In this document: positions 2,607 to 17,521 of the stretch, in pieces
Layout: every line of letters starts with the position of its first letter
How positions within the stretch are numbered: the stretch's first letter is position 1
From: a virus
Virus record (IMG/VR): IMGVR_UViG_3300032334_000286
Location: 1 to 24,697 of that record
Reading direction: 5' to 3' (one strand)
DNA length: 24,697 nucleotides
Position numbers and translations under genes: made by a program
Notes under the pieces: generated by a model
The model's input: only the letters and a program-made list of their open reading frames with translations
The model's database searches: none
Told to the model about the DNA's origin: nothing

Positions 2607-4925
2607 ATGGCAGAAAGAATCGTATCACCCGGCGTATTCACAAGAGAAAATGACCTTTCCTTCCTAGCGCAAGGAGTTGGTGAGATTGGAGCAGCATTTA
2701 TAGGACCTTTTAAGCAAGGACCTGCATTTGTTCCAACTATTGTTAGAACGCAATCAGAATTCGAAGATATCTTTGGAACTCCTGATGGAACTTATTATAC
2801 TGAATATGCAGTACAAAACTATTTAAGAGAAGCTGGAAGTGCTACCATCGTAAGAGTTGGTGGTATTGGTGGATATACTCAAAATTTACCTGTTGGTATT
2901 TTTGCATCTGGTGGTTTAGTTGGTCAAAAACTTATTGGAGTTTTATATTCAACTGAAACTGGAGATGAAGCGGTAGGATTTAAAACACCAACCATAACAG
3001 CAGCTGGACCTGGATTTGCATCTGGTTCTTTTGTATTATCTTCTTCATTTGGATTTGTATCGGCTTCTATTTTAGAAACTGCTACTAACGATGTGGTAGA
3101 TACATTTGGTTCTTCACCATTTGGAGCTAAAACAGCATATACTTACGCTTATTTTAAAGATACAGCAACTAATAATTACACTAACGCTGCAATAGGAATT
3201 GAAGGAGGTACATATGTATCAGCATCAGGATTACCATCGCAAGTGTATGGTGATATAAGTTCAGCTGAAACTCCATATGTTAAATCTCAAAAAGATAATA
3301 ACAATGTTAGATACGATTTATTTAAGTTTGTAACTTTAGGACATGGTACTCCATATAACACTAAATTTAAGATTGGTATTTCTAATGTTAAAGCAGCTGG
3401 TGAAGATGGAGCAACTGATTATTCAACATTCACTGTAACTGTAAGAGGATTTAGTGATACCGATAAGAGAAAGACTGTAATTGAAACATTTAATAATGTA
3501 AATTTAGACCCTGCTTCTCCTAACTATATAGCTAGAAGAATAGGTGATAGATGGAATACGATTGATTCTGATGGTAAGATAACCGAAAATGGCGATTACA
3601 CAAATAAATCAAAGTATGTAAGAGTAGTGGTAGCTGAAGCGGGTTCATTCCCAATTTCATCAGCACCATTTGGACATGCAGCATATGTTAATCCAATTGC
3701 ATTGGCAGCTGGAGATGTAAATAAAGTACCTGCAGTAGTTTACCAAACTGGTTCAGCAAATAACACATCATCATCTCCTGTATATTATTCTGGATTTGAT
3801 TTTGAAACTATTGGAACATCAGATGATAACAAACAATACTTAAAACCAATTCCTGCTGGAGTAGTAACTGGAGCTAACACAGCATTCGCATTTGATTCAC
3901 AATTAACTTATCAAATGACAGGTTCGGCAGCTGGTGATATGGTTAAAAGACAATTTGTATTAGGATTCCAATATGGATTTGATGGTAACGCACCAACTGT
4001 AAAAATCAACTTGGGTTCAAATATTACTGGAGCAAATACGCAAGGATTTAATTGTTCAAACAATTCAACTAATGGTTCAATTGCATATACAAAAGCAATT
4101 AACGCTGTATCAAACGCAGATGAGTGGGATATCAACTTAGTTGTAACTCCTGGTATCATTCGTTCTTTACACCCATCTATTACTACAAAAGTAATTGATA
4201 TGGTTGAAAATAGACAAGATTGTTTCTATATCGCTGATTTTGTAGCAGCAAATGCAACAATTACTGAAGCAACCGAAGAAGCAAATTCAGTAGATTCTAA
4301 CTATGTTGGAACTTACTACCCTTGGGTTAAGACAGTTGATACAAATAGTAATAAATTAATGAGTGTACCTCCATCAGTATTGATGCCGGCTGTATTCGCT
4401 TCTAATGATAGATTAGCAGCTGAATGGTTCGCACCTGCTGGTTTAAACAGAGGTGGTATTACTGGAGCAGTTTCAGTATTGAATAGATTAACACATTCTG
4501 AAAGAGATACTCTATATGAGAACAAAGTAAACCCAATCGCAGCATTCCCTGGACAAGGTATTGTAGCATTCGGACAGAAGACATTGCAAGATAAGGCATC
4601 AGCTTTAGATAGAATCAATGTTAGAAGATTACTTATCACTCTTAAGAAGTTTATCGCTTCAACATCTCGTTTCTTAGTGTTCGAACAAAATACTTCTACA
4701 ACTCGTCAAAGATTCTTAAACACTGTGAACCCTTATTTAGAGGCAGTTCAACAAAGACAAGGTTTATACGCTTTCAGAGTTGTGATGGATGAATCAAACA
4801 ACACACCTGATGTAATTGATAGAAACATATTAGCAGGACAAATTTTCTTACAACCGGCTAAGACAGCTGAATTCATAGTAATTGATTTCAACATCTTACC
4901 AACTGGAGCAAGTTTTAACGCATAA
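2607..4925 (+). CDS. Contractile tail sheath protein (T4 gp18-like)
   Basis: The 772-residue product forms the contractile outer tube of the tail, polymerising around the tail tube and shortening at injection. The N-terminus (SPGVFTRENDLSFLAQGVGE, then AAFIGPFKQGPAFVPTIV and FEDIFGTPDGTYYTEYAVQN) is the usual sheath opening. The C-terminal third carries the conserved sheath core: WFAPAGLNRGGITGAV, LYENKVNPIAAFPGQGIVAF, GQKTL and INVRRLLITLKKFI, ending in a beta strand (EFIVIDFNILPTGASF) that in the family links subunits. Length is in the normal range for T4-like sheaths (659 in T4), with extra surface-domain sequence in the middle (about residues 100-450). The next gene is the tail tube. The codon choice in its C-terminal part looks optimised, as expected for an abundant protein. 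Confidence 0.96.
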   Translation: MAERIVSPGVFTRENDLSFLAQGVGEIGAAFIGPFKQGPAFVPTIVRTQSEFEDIFGTPDGTYYTEYAVQNYLREAGSATIVRVGGIGGYTQNLPVGIFASGGLVGQKLIGVLYSTETGDEAVGFKTPTITAAGPGFASGSFVLSSSFGFVSASILETATNDVVDTFGSSPFGAKTAYTYAYFKDTATNNYTNAAIGIEGGTYVSASGLPSQVYGDISSAETPYVKSQKDNNNVRYDLFKFVTLGHGTPYNTKFKIGISNVKAAGEDGATDYSTFTVTVRGFSDTDKRKTVIETFNNVNLDPASPNYIARRIGDRWNTIDSDGKITENGDYTNKSKYVRVVVAEAGSFPISSAPFGHAAYVNPIALAAGDVNKVPAVVYQTGSANNTSSSPVYYSGFDFETIGTSDDNKQYLKPIPAGVVTGANTAFAFDSQLTYQMTGSAAGDMVKRQFVLGFQYGFDGNAPTVKINLGSNITGANTQGFNCSNNSTNGSIAYTKAINAVSNADEWDINLVVTPGIIRSLHPSITTKVIDMVENRQDCFYIADFVAANATITEATEEANSVDSNYVGTYYPWVKTVDTNSNKLMSVPPSVLMPAVFASNDRLAAEWFAPAGLNRGGITGAVSVLNRLTHSERDTLYENKVNPIAAFPGQGIVAFGQKTLQDKASALDRINVRRLLITLKKFIASTSRFLVFEQNTSTTRQRFLNTVNPYLEAVQQRQGLYAFRVVMDESNNTPDVIDRNILAGQIFLQPAKTAEFIVIDFNILPTGASFNA

Positions 4926-14722: not shown

Positions 14723-15105
14723 GGGGGTGCCTTGGAATTGATTGTGATGAGAATGGTAGTATCACACGTAGACAGAAGTGCTAGATGTCTTTAAATCTGT
14801 ACAAAACAATAACTGACGTAGAATTATCTACTTGGACCTACGAAGACTTAATGTCTTTTATGGGTGCTGATTTAGCTGTAGCAGCTTAATCCCTTCCGCA
14901 TCACTCGTGGAATTTAAATAGAAGTGAACAAAACGGAGCTCTACCTATCGGCTCTTTAAAACTGATAGGATGGTGGAATCGCTGAATTAACCATTCGGCC
15001 CCAATTATTTTGGAAAGTTAATAAGATTAAACTTTATCCTAAACGTGTAATTCGTTGGTATTACGATTACTTTGCAAGACATGGGTTCGAATCCCATCAC
15101 CTCCA
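14723..15105 (+). ncRNA. ssrA: Transfer-messenger RNA (tmRNA), phage-encoded
   Basis: tmRNA frees ribosomes stalled on broken mRNAs and adds a degradation tag. The acceptor stem pairs GGGGGTG (14723-14729) with CACCTCC (15098-15104); position 3 gives a G-U pair, the alanine identity element, and A15105 is the discriminator. CCA is not encoded. The T arm is ATGGG-TTCGAAT-CCCAT (15081-15097). The 5' part TGGAATTGAT matches the usual TGGATTCGAC. The resume site AATAACTG precedes codon GAC at 14815, 93 bases from the 5' end (90 in E. coli). The tag frame 14815-14886 has 24 codons, ends GADLAVAA and stops at TAA 14887. After it, CCTATC (14944) pairs with GATAGG (14964) while GAGC (14936) pairs with GCTC (14951), an H-type pseudoknot. 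The total is 383 bases. A dedicated promoter and terminator flank it. Confidence 0.93.
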
Positions 15106-15109
15106 CAAT

Positions 15110-15592: not shown

Positions 15593-16879
15593 ATGAAGGT
15601 TATTGAGTCTATCGAAGAAATTAATCAATTAAAAGAAAAGCTGGAAACGGAAGCATCTATTTGGTATCCATTGTGGGTAGATAATAGTAAGCATCCCCTA
15701 AACACTTCTCTTTCGCTCGTAATTGTACGATGTTCTGATGGACTATACATTCTACCACATAAACATACAGACGCTCTATCGTTATCTAATGAGCAAATAG
15801 AATCTATTATAAATACCAACGGACAAAAGTGGGTATTCCAAAAGAAAAAGATATTACACTCACTTAATATTTCCGTAAATCTATATGATGTAGACTCAGC
15901 ATACTTTAGAAAGGAAGCAAAGGTAATTGATTATGAAGCCCCTTTAAATCCTCTCCTTTCAACGCTAACTCACAAAGGGTATAGAGATGACTTGATACAA
16001 TCCCTTCCTCTAATGAAGATTGTAGAGGTAATAGAACCGCAATTTGGTAAGTACTTCCATAAAGAACCTTATACTCCTACACTTAAGTGGTACAACGAAG
16101 TGTTTATACCTACCCTTTCAGATATTGAACAATTCGGAATCCGTGTCGATGGGAAAAAATTTATTGATAGATGGCCTCAAGCTCTTAAGCAGATATCCTC
16201 CGATAATTTAGTTTACACCGAATACAATCCATTTACGGTGACAGGTAGACCATCCAATAGACATGGTGGTGTGAACTATGCCGCCCTAAACAAAACCGAT
16301 GGTAGTAGAGAGTGTTTCATTTCCGATGGGATATTTCTACAAATGGATTACAACGCATATCACCCTCGTCTTATCGGTAAGTTGGTGAACTTTGAACTCC
16401 CAACAACCAGTGTGCATGAGTGGTTAGCCGAACAATATGGTTGTAGTGTGGATGAATCAAAGGGAATTACTTTCCAATTACTTTATGGTGGTATCGATGA
16501 TGATTTCCGTCAAATCCCATATTTTAATGCGGTAGCTGATTATATTGATAACCTATGGATTGATGTACAAAATAAAGGATTCCTACAAACACCACATAGA
16601 GAGATTCCGTTGGAGTGGATAGAACAACCAAATGCACAAAAGGTATTTAACTACTTATTACAAGCCGTTGAGACTGAAATGAATATTGAGGTTATGAGAA
16701 AGATATTAGATTACATAAAAGGGAGCGGTATTAACTTTTGTTTATACACATATGACTCGTTCCTTTTTGATGTTCCGACTGATGTTAATAAGGATTTGAT
16801 TAAGGGATTAAAAGAAATAATTGAAGGAAGTGGTTTCCCTGTTAAGGCTAGTTGGGGTTTGGATTACGGAAAACTATAA
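15593..16879 (+). CDS. Small divergent family A DNA polymerase, 428 aa
   Basis: The palm motifs are visible in order. TVTGRPSNRHGGVNYAAL corresponds to the T-GR-S-PNLQNIP block. Motif A is MDYNAYHPRLIG (Asp252). Motif B is SKGITFQLLYGG (Lys290, Tyr298-Gly299). Motif C is LYTYDSFLFD (Asp388), so both catalytic aspartates are kept. Motif A has His257 where PolI has the Glu steric gate, and motif C has Tyr-Asp-Ser instead of His-Asp-Glu. Residues 1-130 look like a remnant of the 3'-5' exonuclease domain (GLYILPHKHTDALSLS, WVFQKKKILHSL) without its DxE and downstream Asp, so proofreading is unlikely. It is short for the family (about 600 for Klenow fragment). It has its own host-type promoter and uses more C-ending codons than the structural genes. 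Role in replication or repair is not decided by sequence. Confidence 0.85.
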   Translation: MKVIESIEEINQLKEKLETEASIWYPLWVDNSKHPLNTSLSLVIVRCSDGLYILPHKHTDALSLSNEQIESIINTNGQKWVFQKKKILHSLNISVNLYDVDSAYFRKEAKVIDYEAPLNPLLSTLTHKGYRDDLIQSLPLMKIVEVIEPQFGKYFHKEPYTPTLKWYNEVFIPTLSDIEQFGIRVDGKKFIDRWPQALKQISSDNLVYTEYNPFTVTGRPSNRHGGVNYAALNKTDGSRECFISDGIFLQMDYNAYHPRLIGKLVNFELPTTSVHEWLAEQYGCSVDESKGITFQLLYGGIDDDFRQIPYFNAVADYIDNLWIDVQNKGFLQTPHREIPLEWIEQPNAQKVFNYLLQAVETEMNIEVMRKILDYIKGSGINFCLYTYDSFLFDVPTDVNKDLIKGLKEIIEGSGFPVKASWGLDYGKL

Positions 16880-16885
16880 GAATCC

Positions 16886-16893
16886 ATATTTAT
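16886..16893 (+). promoter_or_regulatory. Candidate late promoter motif ATATTTAT for nuclease operon
   Basis: Exact motif 25 bases before the ATG at 16919, just after the polymerase stop codon. Confidence 0.55.
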
Positions 16894-16918
16894 AGTATAT
16901 ACAAAAACATGCTATAAT

Positions 16919-17521
16919 ATGAAGAAAATCGGTATCCTTTTTAGTTTTTTAATCCTTTCTTTGGTTTCGTTTGGACAAAATGTAAGAATTAAAAACAATG
17001 TATTTGAGGTTTTATACTCACAATCATTAGAACAACCCTTAGTAATTAAGTATCGTTCAACAAACCGTCCTACAAATGTGAATAGAGGGGCTATGGATTT
17101 TTATAAAGAATCAAACACCAAAACATCAGATGGTGAAGATTACAAAGCAAATATATACGATAAAGGGCATGGCGCTCCTGCTGCAACATTTTCTGATAAT
17201 ATGGAAAATCTAAAACAAACATTTTCTTACCTAAATTGTATAATGCAGGACCAGTACCTTAATAGAGGTGAGTGGAGATTGTTAGAGGAGCAAGAAAGAA
17301 AATGGGATGATACTGAAAACTTAACAATATTAATAAAAACATTCTTTGATACTCCTGCTAAAAGAGTACCAACTGGAGCGGCAGTTCCTTCACACTTACA
17401 AAAACATATCTATTTTGAAAAACAAAAGAAATGGAAGTGTTATGTATTTCTAAATGAAAAACCTAAATTTCATTGGGATGAATTAGAAATGATATGTGAA
17501 CCCGCTGACCATAAATTTTAA
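16919..17521 (+). CDS. Exported DNA/RNA non-specific endonuclease (beta-beta-alpha metal, NucA/EndoG type)
   Basis: 200 residues with a signal peptide at 1-20 (MKKIGILFSFLILSLVSFGQ; Lys-Lys, hydrophobic core, cut probably near SFG-Q, a form common in Bacteroidota). The catalytic block is YDKGHGAPAATF (His84; family DRGH, here DKGH), followed by TFSYLNCIMQDQYLNRGEWR with Asn106 as the metal-binding Asn and the NRGxW-LExxxR pattern. Family members cleave DNA and RNA with a bound divalent metal through this His and Asn. The domain is small for the family but ends in a strand/helix (YVFLNEKPKFHWDELEMICE). It is under a late-type motif and its stop TAA overlaps the ATG of the next gene by one base. 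Export implies action in the periplasm or outside the cell. Confidence 0.85.
   Translation: MKKIGILFSFLILSLVSFGQNVRIKNNVFEVLYSQSLEQPLVIKYRSTNRPTNVNRGAMDFYKESNTKTSDGEDYKANIYDKGHGAPAATFSDNMENLKQTFSYLNCIMQDQYLNRGEWRLLEEQERKWDDTENLTILIKTFFDTPAKRVPTGAAVPSHLQKHIYFEKQKKWKCYVFLNEKPKFHWDELEMICEPADHKF

Follow-up and report, generated by a model that had tools for sequence, protein, structure and literature searches.

The stretch of DNA analyzed here (the window) is a whole IMG/VR record of 24,697 bases, and its contents are those of a T4-like myovirus tail module. Tail-fibre matches were found at its left end, and a GH19 endolysin gene lies 4.6 kb downstream of the nuclease gene that is the subject of this work. 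When the entire window was compared with phage records by megablast, no close named relative emerged at the DNA level. The nuclease gene sits in a slot flanked by a compact polymerase-like gene and a much larger one, and the features used below are as follows.

2607–4925, gene for a tail-sheath-like protein, named from sequence reading
15593–16879, plus strand, compact DNA-polymerase-like gene of 428 aa, the left edge of the slot (PHROG 17 DNA polymerase, E 7.2e-13)
16886–16894, plus strand, ATATTTATA element, candidate late-type promoter of the nuclease/large-gene unit, 33 bases before the nuclease start
16919–17521, plus strand, Endonuclease_NS nuclease gene with a predicted signal peptide, 200 aa, ATG start, stop included
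16919–16975, plus strand, predicted Sec signal peptide, residues 1–19, cleavage G19/Q20 by the Q-rule
17159–17170, plus strand, DKGH motif, D81–H84, invariant in 69 of 69 relatives, H84 being the predicted general base
17234–17299, plus strand, the other catalytic residues, N106, N115, E123 and R127, invariant in 69 of 69 relatives, N115 a metal ligand by homology
17438–17497, plus strand, C174 and C193, each a cysteine in 68 of 69 relatives, both lacking in phage immuto
17521–21657, plus strand, large gene of 1378 aa, sharing one base with the nuclease gene, relatives 657–2484 aa long

The one-base overlap between the nuclease gene and the 1378-aa gene, which the sequence-only reading had taken to link the two in expression, is real (TAATG at 17521) and recurs in 35 of 50 distinct cases. 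That link holds up. The 1378-aa protein includes a ParB-like DGHHRWAA stretch. On the other side of the slot, the 428-aa protein covered only part of PHROG 17 and had no match in a Pfam search; it looks like a small enzyme of the PolA kind. A phage-encoded tmRNA lies in the gap upstream of the polymerase-like gene (window 14723–15108, plus strand; Rfam RF00023, 75 bits; ARAGORN tag VNKTELYLSAL).

The 200-aa protein scored 67.5 bits with the Pfam profile PF01223, Endonuclease_NS, for which the cut-off is 23 (E 1.7e-18), and it also matched PHROG 14168, "nuclease" (E 2.3e-18). In structure comparisons with its AlphaFold2 model (mean pLDDT 83), mouse EndoG gave E 6.5e-11 in Foldseek and Z 18.1 over 183 residues in VIA, Serratia nuclease reached Z 15.9, and EXOG and NucA matched as well. 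The nuclease-like domain of autotaxin was likewise matched (Z 13.8), so the fold alone is no proof of activity. The identification as a nuclease was nevertheless borne out by family, PHROG, fold and catalytic residues taken together, and the product is putatively a Mg-dependent beta-beta-alpha metal-finger nuclease of the EndoG/Serratia type. The term "non-specific" comes from the PF01223 family name and here describes a predicted activity. Residues 44–125 also gave weak matches to PHROG 4900, tail fibre (E 0.0047), and to gp47 in PDB 9b45 (E 0.56); these may be chance.

Across 69 distinct relatives, no change was found at D81, K82, G83, H84, N106, Q110, N115, R116, W119, E123 or R127, and the mature part of the protein showed a dN/dS of 0.11, indicating strong purifying selection. 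In the alignment, DKGH falls on the DRGH of Serratia nuclease, and N106, N115, E123 and R127 are spaced 9/8/4, identical to the spacing in that enzyme, where the counterparts are presumably N110, N119, E127 and R131. C174 and C193 are present or absent together, which makes them a candidate disulfide. The sequence-only reading had suspected that the motif might be DKGH instead of DRGH and that the enzyme might then be inactive. The motif does read DKGH. Loss of activity on that account was rejected because K82 is kept in all 69 relatives and because DKGH is also found in phage K64-1, in cellular enzymes and in group B streptococcal NucA, a listed secreted nuclease whose effect is lost in a His mutant (PMC9294136, PMC4733049). 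The cellular frequency comes from a survey of 28 readable Flavobacteriaceae-type enzymes (3 with DKGH, 25 with DRGH), and not from the search whose pattern contained DKGH.

The N-terminus of the nuclease consists of MKKIGILFSFLILSLVSFG followed, after the predicted cleavage site, by QNV. This is the pattern of the Q-rule, under which Bacteroidota signal peptides have Q directly after the cleavage site (PMC5837995, PMC10653852). Signal peptides were called with a rule of our own and not with SignalP, requiring K or R near the start, a hydrophobic core and small-x-small before Q. By this rule and with the start codons chosen, on both of which the counts depend, a Q-rule signal peptide was present in 63 of 64 distinct full-length relatives versus 27 of 775 other phage ORFs from the same loci, so its occurrence is not chance, and the Bacteroidota-type Sec signal peptide proposed earlier is confirmed to that extent. 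Q20 is kept in 65 of the 69 relatives despite a fast-evolving signal region (dN/dS 0.39, versus 0.11 for the mature part). Proteins with Q-rule signals are few overall in two long relatives (5 among 381 ORFs in one, 3 among 130 in the other). Of the cellular relatives, many have the look of lipoproteins, or of enzymes with a signal peptide or a membrane anchor.

Other proteins with export signals cluster around the nuclease in other phages. Clusters of proteins with Q-rule or lipoprotein signals were seen in loci L077 (10527–15868), L208 (5358–7976), L219 and L239; they include signal-peptide proteins of 237–242 aa, CsgG-like by eye, and Ser/Lys/Glu-rich proteins of 450–475 aa, both without a Pfam match. 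The curli channel CsgG was considered as an export partner and rejected after a PF03783 search of 12 relatives gave no match. In phage immuto, gp15 (L077, 12691–13422) is a cohesin-domain protein that carries a Q-rule signal peptide and, at its C-terminus, a type IX sorting domain (PF18962, over the cut-off); it is apparently addressed to the host type IX secretion system. An S-adenosylmethionine decarboxylase gene stands directly 3' of the nuclease in L208 (8620–9033, PF02675), L213, L219 and L233. A 274-kb relative (G002, 28749–32009; L242, 8749–12009) encodes a 1086-aa TonB-dependent-receptor-like protein with a signal peptide and carboxypeptidase-regulatory, plug and outer-membrane beta-barrel domains (PF25183, E 1.7e-40).

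Seven exact copies of ATATTTATA were found in the window, all on the plus strand and each followed by a gene start within 70 bases. The expected number is 1.77 copies, and none of 100 shuffles reached seven. Copies in the window precede tail genes, the tail-sheath-like gene included. The element is kept upstream of both nuclease types described below, and the contig that lacks the nuclease has it ahead of the large gene. In the 274-kb relative it is 18-fold enriched 15–60 bases before ORFs, and the ORFs behind it encode sheath, fibre-like and exported proteins. A ribonucleotide-reductase-like gene is also preceded by it, so the element may not be strictly late. By inference ATATTTATA would be a promoter element and, by association, one of late type; with the one-base overlap, it makes the nuclease and the large gene one unit. 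The earlier label "late-expressed" is therefore upheld only indirectly, through an element at 16886 common to tail genes.

The slot itself is widely conserved. The polymerase-like gene lies upstream of the nuclease in about 119 viral loci and the large gene downstream in about 120; these locus counts include near-copies, and distinct sequences are consequently given where it matters. When loci were surveyed from the polymerase gene, the nuclease came next in 66 of the 67 with enough sequence. The exception was L340, in which the polymerase gene is followed directly by the large gene. Among the 66 filled slots, 53 held the DKGH type found in the window and 13 a DRGH type, which is 27–31% identical to it, matches PF01223 more strongly and carries its own Q-rule signal peptide (62 of 62 sequences of this type, with start codons chosen in the signal's favor). 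A fully supported branch of the nuclease tree separates the two types, with cellular enzymes on both sides. Reduced to 38 distinct polymerases, the survey gave 29 with DKGH, 8 with DRGH and one empty slot; the polymerase tree requires four changes of state, and given its well-supported branches at least three switches between nuclease types are unavoidable. Both trees are quick-search trees with support from one test only.

The exchange can be followed at the DNA level between L326 and L329, whose polymerase proteins are 94% identical. Their DNA is mostly 85–97% identical up to the first nuclease codons, falls to about 40–60% over most of that gene and climbs again within the large gene. The simplest reading of these sequences would be that one exported nuclease has repeatedly been exchanged for another in the same slot. 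Because what replaces the nuclease is the other exported type, the target of selection would seem to be the exported activity and not any single protein. The new result is a slot between the polymerase-like and large genes that keeps a predicted exported nuclease, swapped in place. Exported phage nucleases are mainly known as prophage cargo; here, one is nearly fixed in a lineage of T4-like aquatic Bacteroidota phages.

Beyond the slot, DKGH-type nucleases were found in at least 155 viral loci and DRGH-type nucleases in at least 89. Klebsiella, Xanthomonas, Yersinia and Sinorhizobium phages also encode members of the family, there with signal peptides of the Proteobacteria style, so exported nucleases are recurrent in large phages, and the view that such an enzyme is unusual in a phage was half right.

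We infer that the nuclease is secreted, active and made late. Taken as a whole, the best explanation, which is putative and which we hold tentatively, is that the exported nuclease destroys foreign DNA outside the cytoplasm as an added barrier, with the exclusion role as its least certain part. Synthesis of the nuclease would fall in the latter half of infection of a Bacteroidota cell and would start from a phage promoter common to tail genes. The host Sec pathway would export it and signal peptidase I would cut after G19, giving a periplasmic enzyme with an N-terminal (pyro)glutamine and possibly a disulfide bond, probably released in part at lysis. Export would keep the enzyme away from the phage's own replicating DNA. 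Its targets would most likely be foreign DNA at the envelope, either the genomes of later phages trapped in or leaked into the periplasm or free DNA, and the occupied cell would thereby gain a further barrier.

Several points weigh on this barrier. Because myoviruses deliver their DNA by way of the tail tube, incoming DNA may rarely come within reach of a periplasmic enzyme, and Anderson and Eigner are said to have found in 1971 that T4 exclusion has no need for periplasmic DNA breakdown. The host may already be supplied, as 108 of 149 genomes of one Flavobacteriaceae-type family carry an enzyme of the PF01223 family. Neither the window nor either type of slot showed an immunity gene adjoining the nuclease, and without one the enzyme would strike sibling phages too. 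On the other side, superinfecting DNA is trapped in the periplasm in T4 (PMC12642591), and Campylobacter prophage DNases sharply cut natural transformation (PMC3995785, PMC10893306). A broader proposal, possible but doubtful, is that such a dedicated slot is a standing feature of large and probably virulent phages across several host phyla. They would reserve it for a Sec-exported nuclease, recruited anew from distant branches of the family, and the exported enzymes would act as a general "DNA moat" in the envelope against rival genomes while the phage's own DNA stays safe in the cytoplasm.

The exported nuclease could instead feed the phage, cutting DNA and RNA, in the periplasm or beyond the cell, to nucleotides for phage DNA synthesis and phosphorus, a use that we regard as conceivable though rather doubtful. 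Nucleotide genes adjoin the nuclease in different phages: here the polymerase gene, in immuto a ribonucleotide reductase and a resolvase, and in L220, L227 and L072 a thymidylate-kinase-like gene that overlaps the nuclease start. The hosts are aquatic, and the cellular family is widespread. However, such phages carry many nucleotide genes, so this adjacency may be chance; no transporter or nucleotidase lies beside the nuclease, and a late-type promoter would come late for feeding replication. A late-type promoter also speaks for clean-up at lysis, in which released nuclease would cut host DNA and RNA and biofilm DNA, lower viscosity and free progeny from debris. The endolysin gene 4.6 kb downstream points the same way, and streptococcal phage DNases have been proposed to help phage particles disseminate (PMC9294136). 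The transcription unit of the nuclease contains no lysis gene, however, and a cytoplasmic nuclease would also be freed at lysis, though phage DNA would be cut first. Clean-up appears unlikely. The timing, and the fact that a different nuclease type takes over the slot, make the barrier to foreign DNA a slight favorite over both scavenging and clean-up.

Two further alternatives bear on where the protein goes. The N-terminus might be an uncleaved anchor, with the enzyme acting in the cytoplasm or on its membrane, perhaps to break down host DNA; the AlphaFold2 model has a helix over residues 2–17, and the N-terminal signal of the T4 antiholin RI was reportedly taken for an anchor at one time. 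Yet small residues at −3 and −1 and Q at +1 are kept in almost all members of both types, a cleavage consensus that a plain anchor would not keep, and phage DNA would be endangered, which makes this reading very improbable. Equally far-fetched, if not slightly more so, is a nuclease that is part of the virion or injected together with the DNA: the one-base overlap and conserved pairing tie it to a large variable gene possibly of virion origin, but the signal peptide leads out of the cytoplasm, where virions are assembled, and the gene has other neighbors in other phages.

Among known systems, the closest in kind are the DNases of Campylobacter jejuni prophages CJIE1, CJIE2 and CJIE4 (dns, dns2, dns3), which are likewise phage-encoded and extracellular or periplasmic; the CJIE4 product is annotated as a DNA/RNA non-specific endonuclease (PMC3995785, PMC10893306). 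These DNases are carried by temperate prophages and are active in lysogens against natural transformation. Our window has T4-like tail genes, and a prophage origin appears less likely, with no PF00589 (tyrosine) integrase found in 11 relatives, several of them fragments. Spd1 of a Streptococcus pyogenes prophage is also encoded by a phage and secreted, and this DNase has an active site of the His/Asn/Glu kind (PMC9294136), a likeness drawn from its description, but it is lysogenic cargo in a Gram-positive host. Serratia nuclease, Anabaena NucA and EndoG share the fold and the catalytic residues, whereas they are cellular, longer and of the DRGH form. The Klebsiella jumbo phage K64-1 and its relatives resemble the present case in phage size, signal peptide, PF01223 family and DKGH; their "periplasmic DNA/RNA non-specific endonuclease", known by annotation only, is very distant in sequence and has a Proteobacteria-type signal peptide. 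Flavobacterium phage vB_FspM_immuto gp12 (NC_055915) has the same kind of signal peptide and DKGH and is about 45% identical, but it lies in another gene context and groups with cellular enzymes, so it is probably a separate acquisition. As immuto is a cultured phage with a relative of the nuclease, the role of such an enzyme in exclusion, nutrition or lysis is directly testable there.
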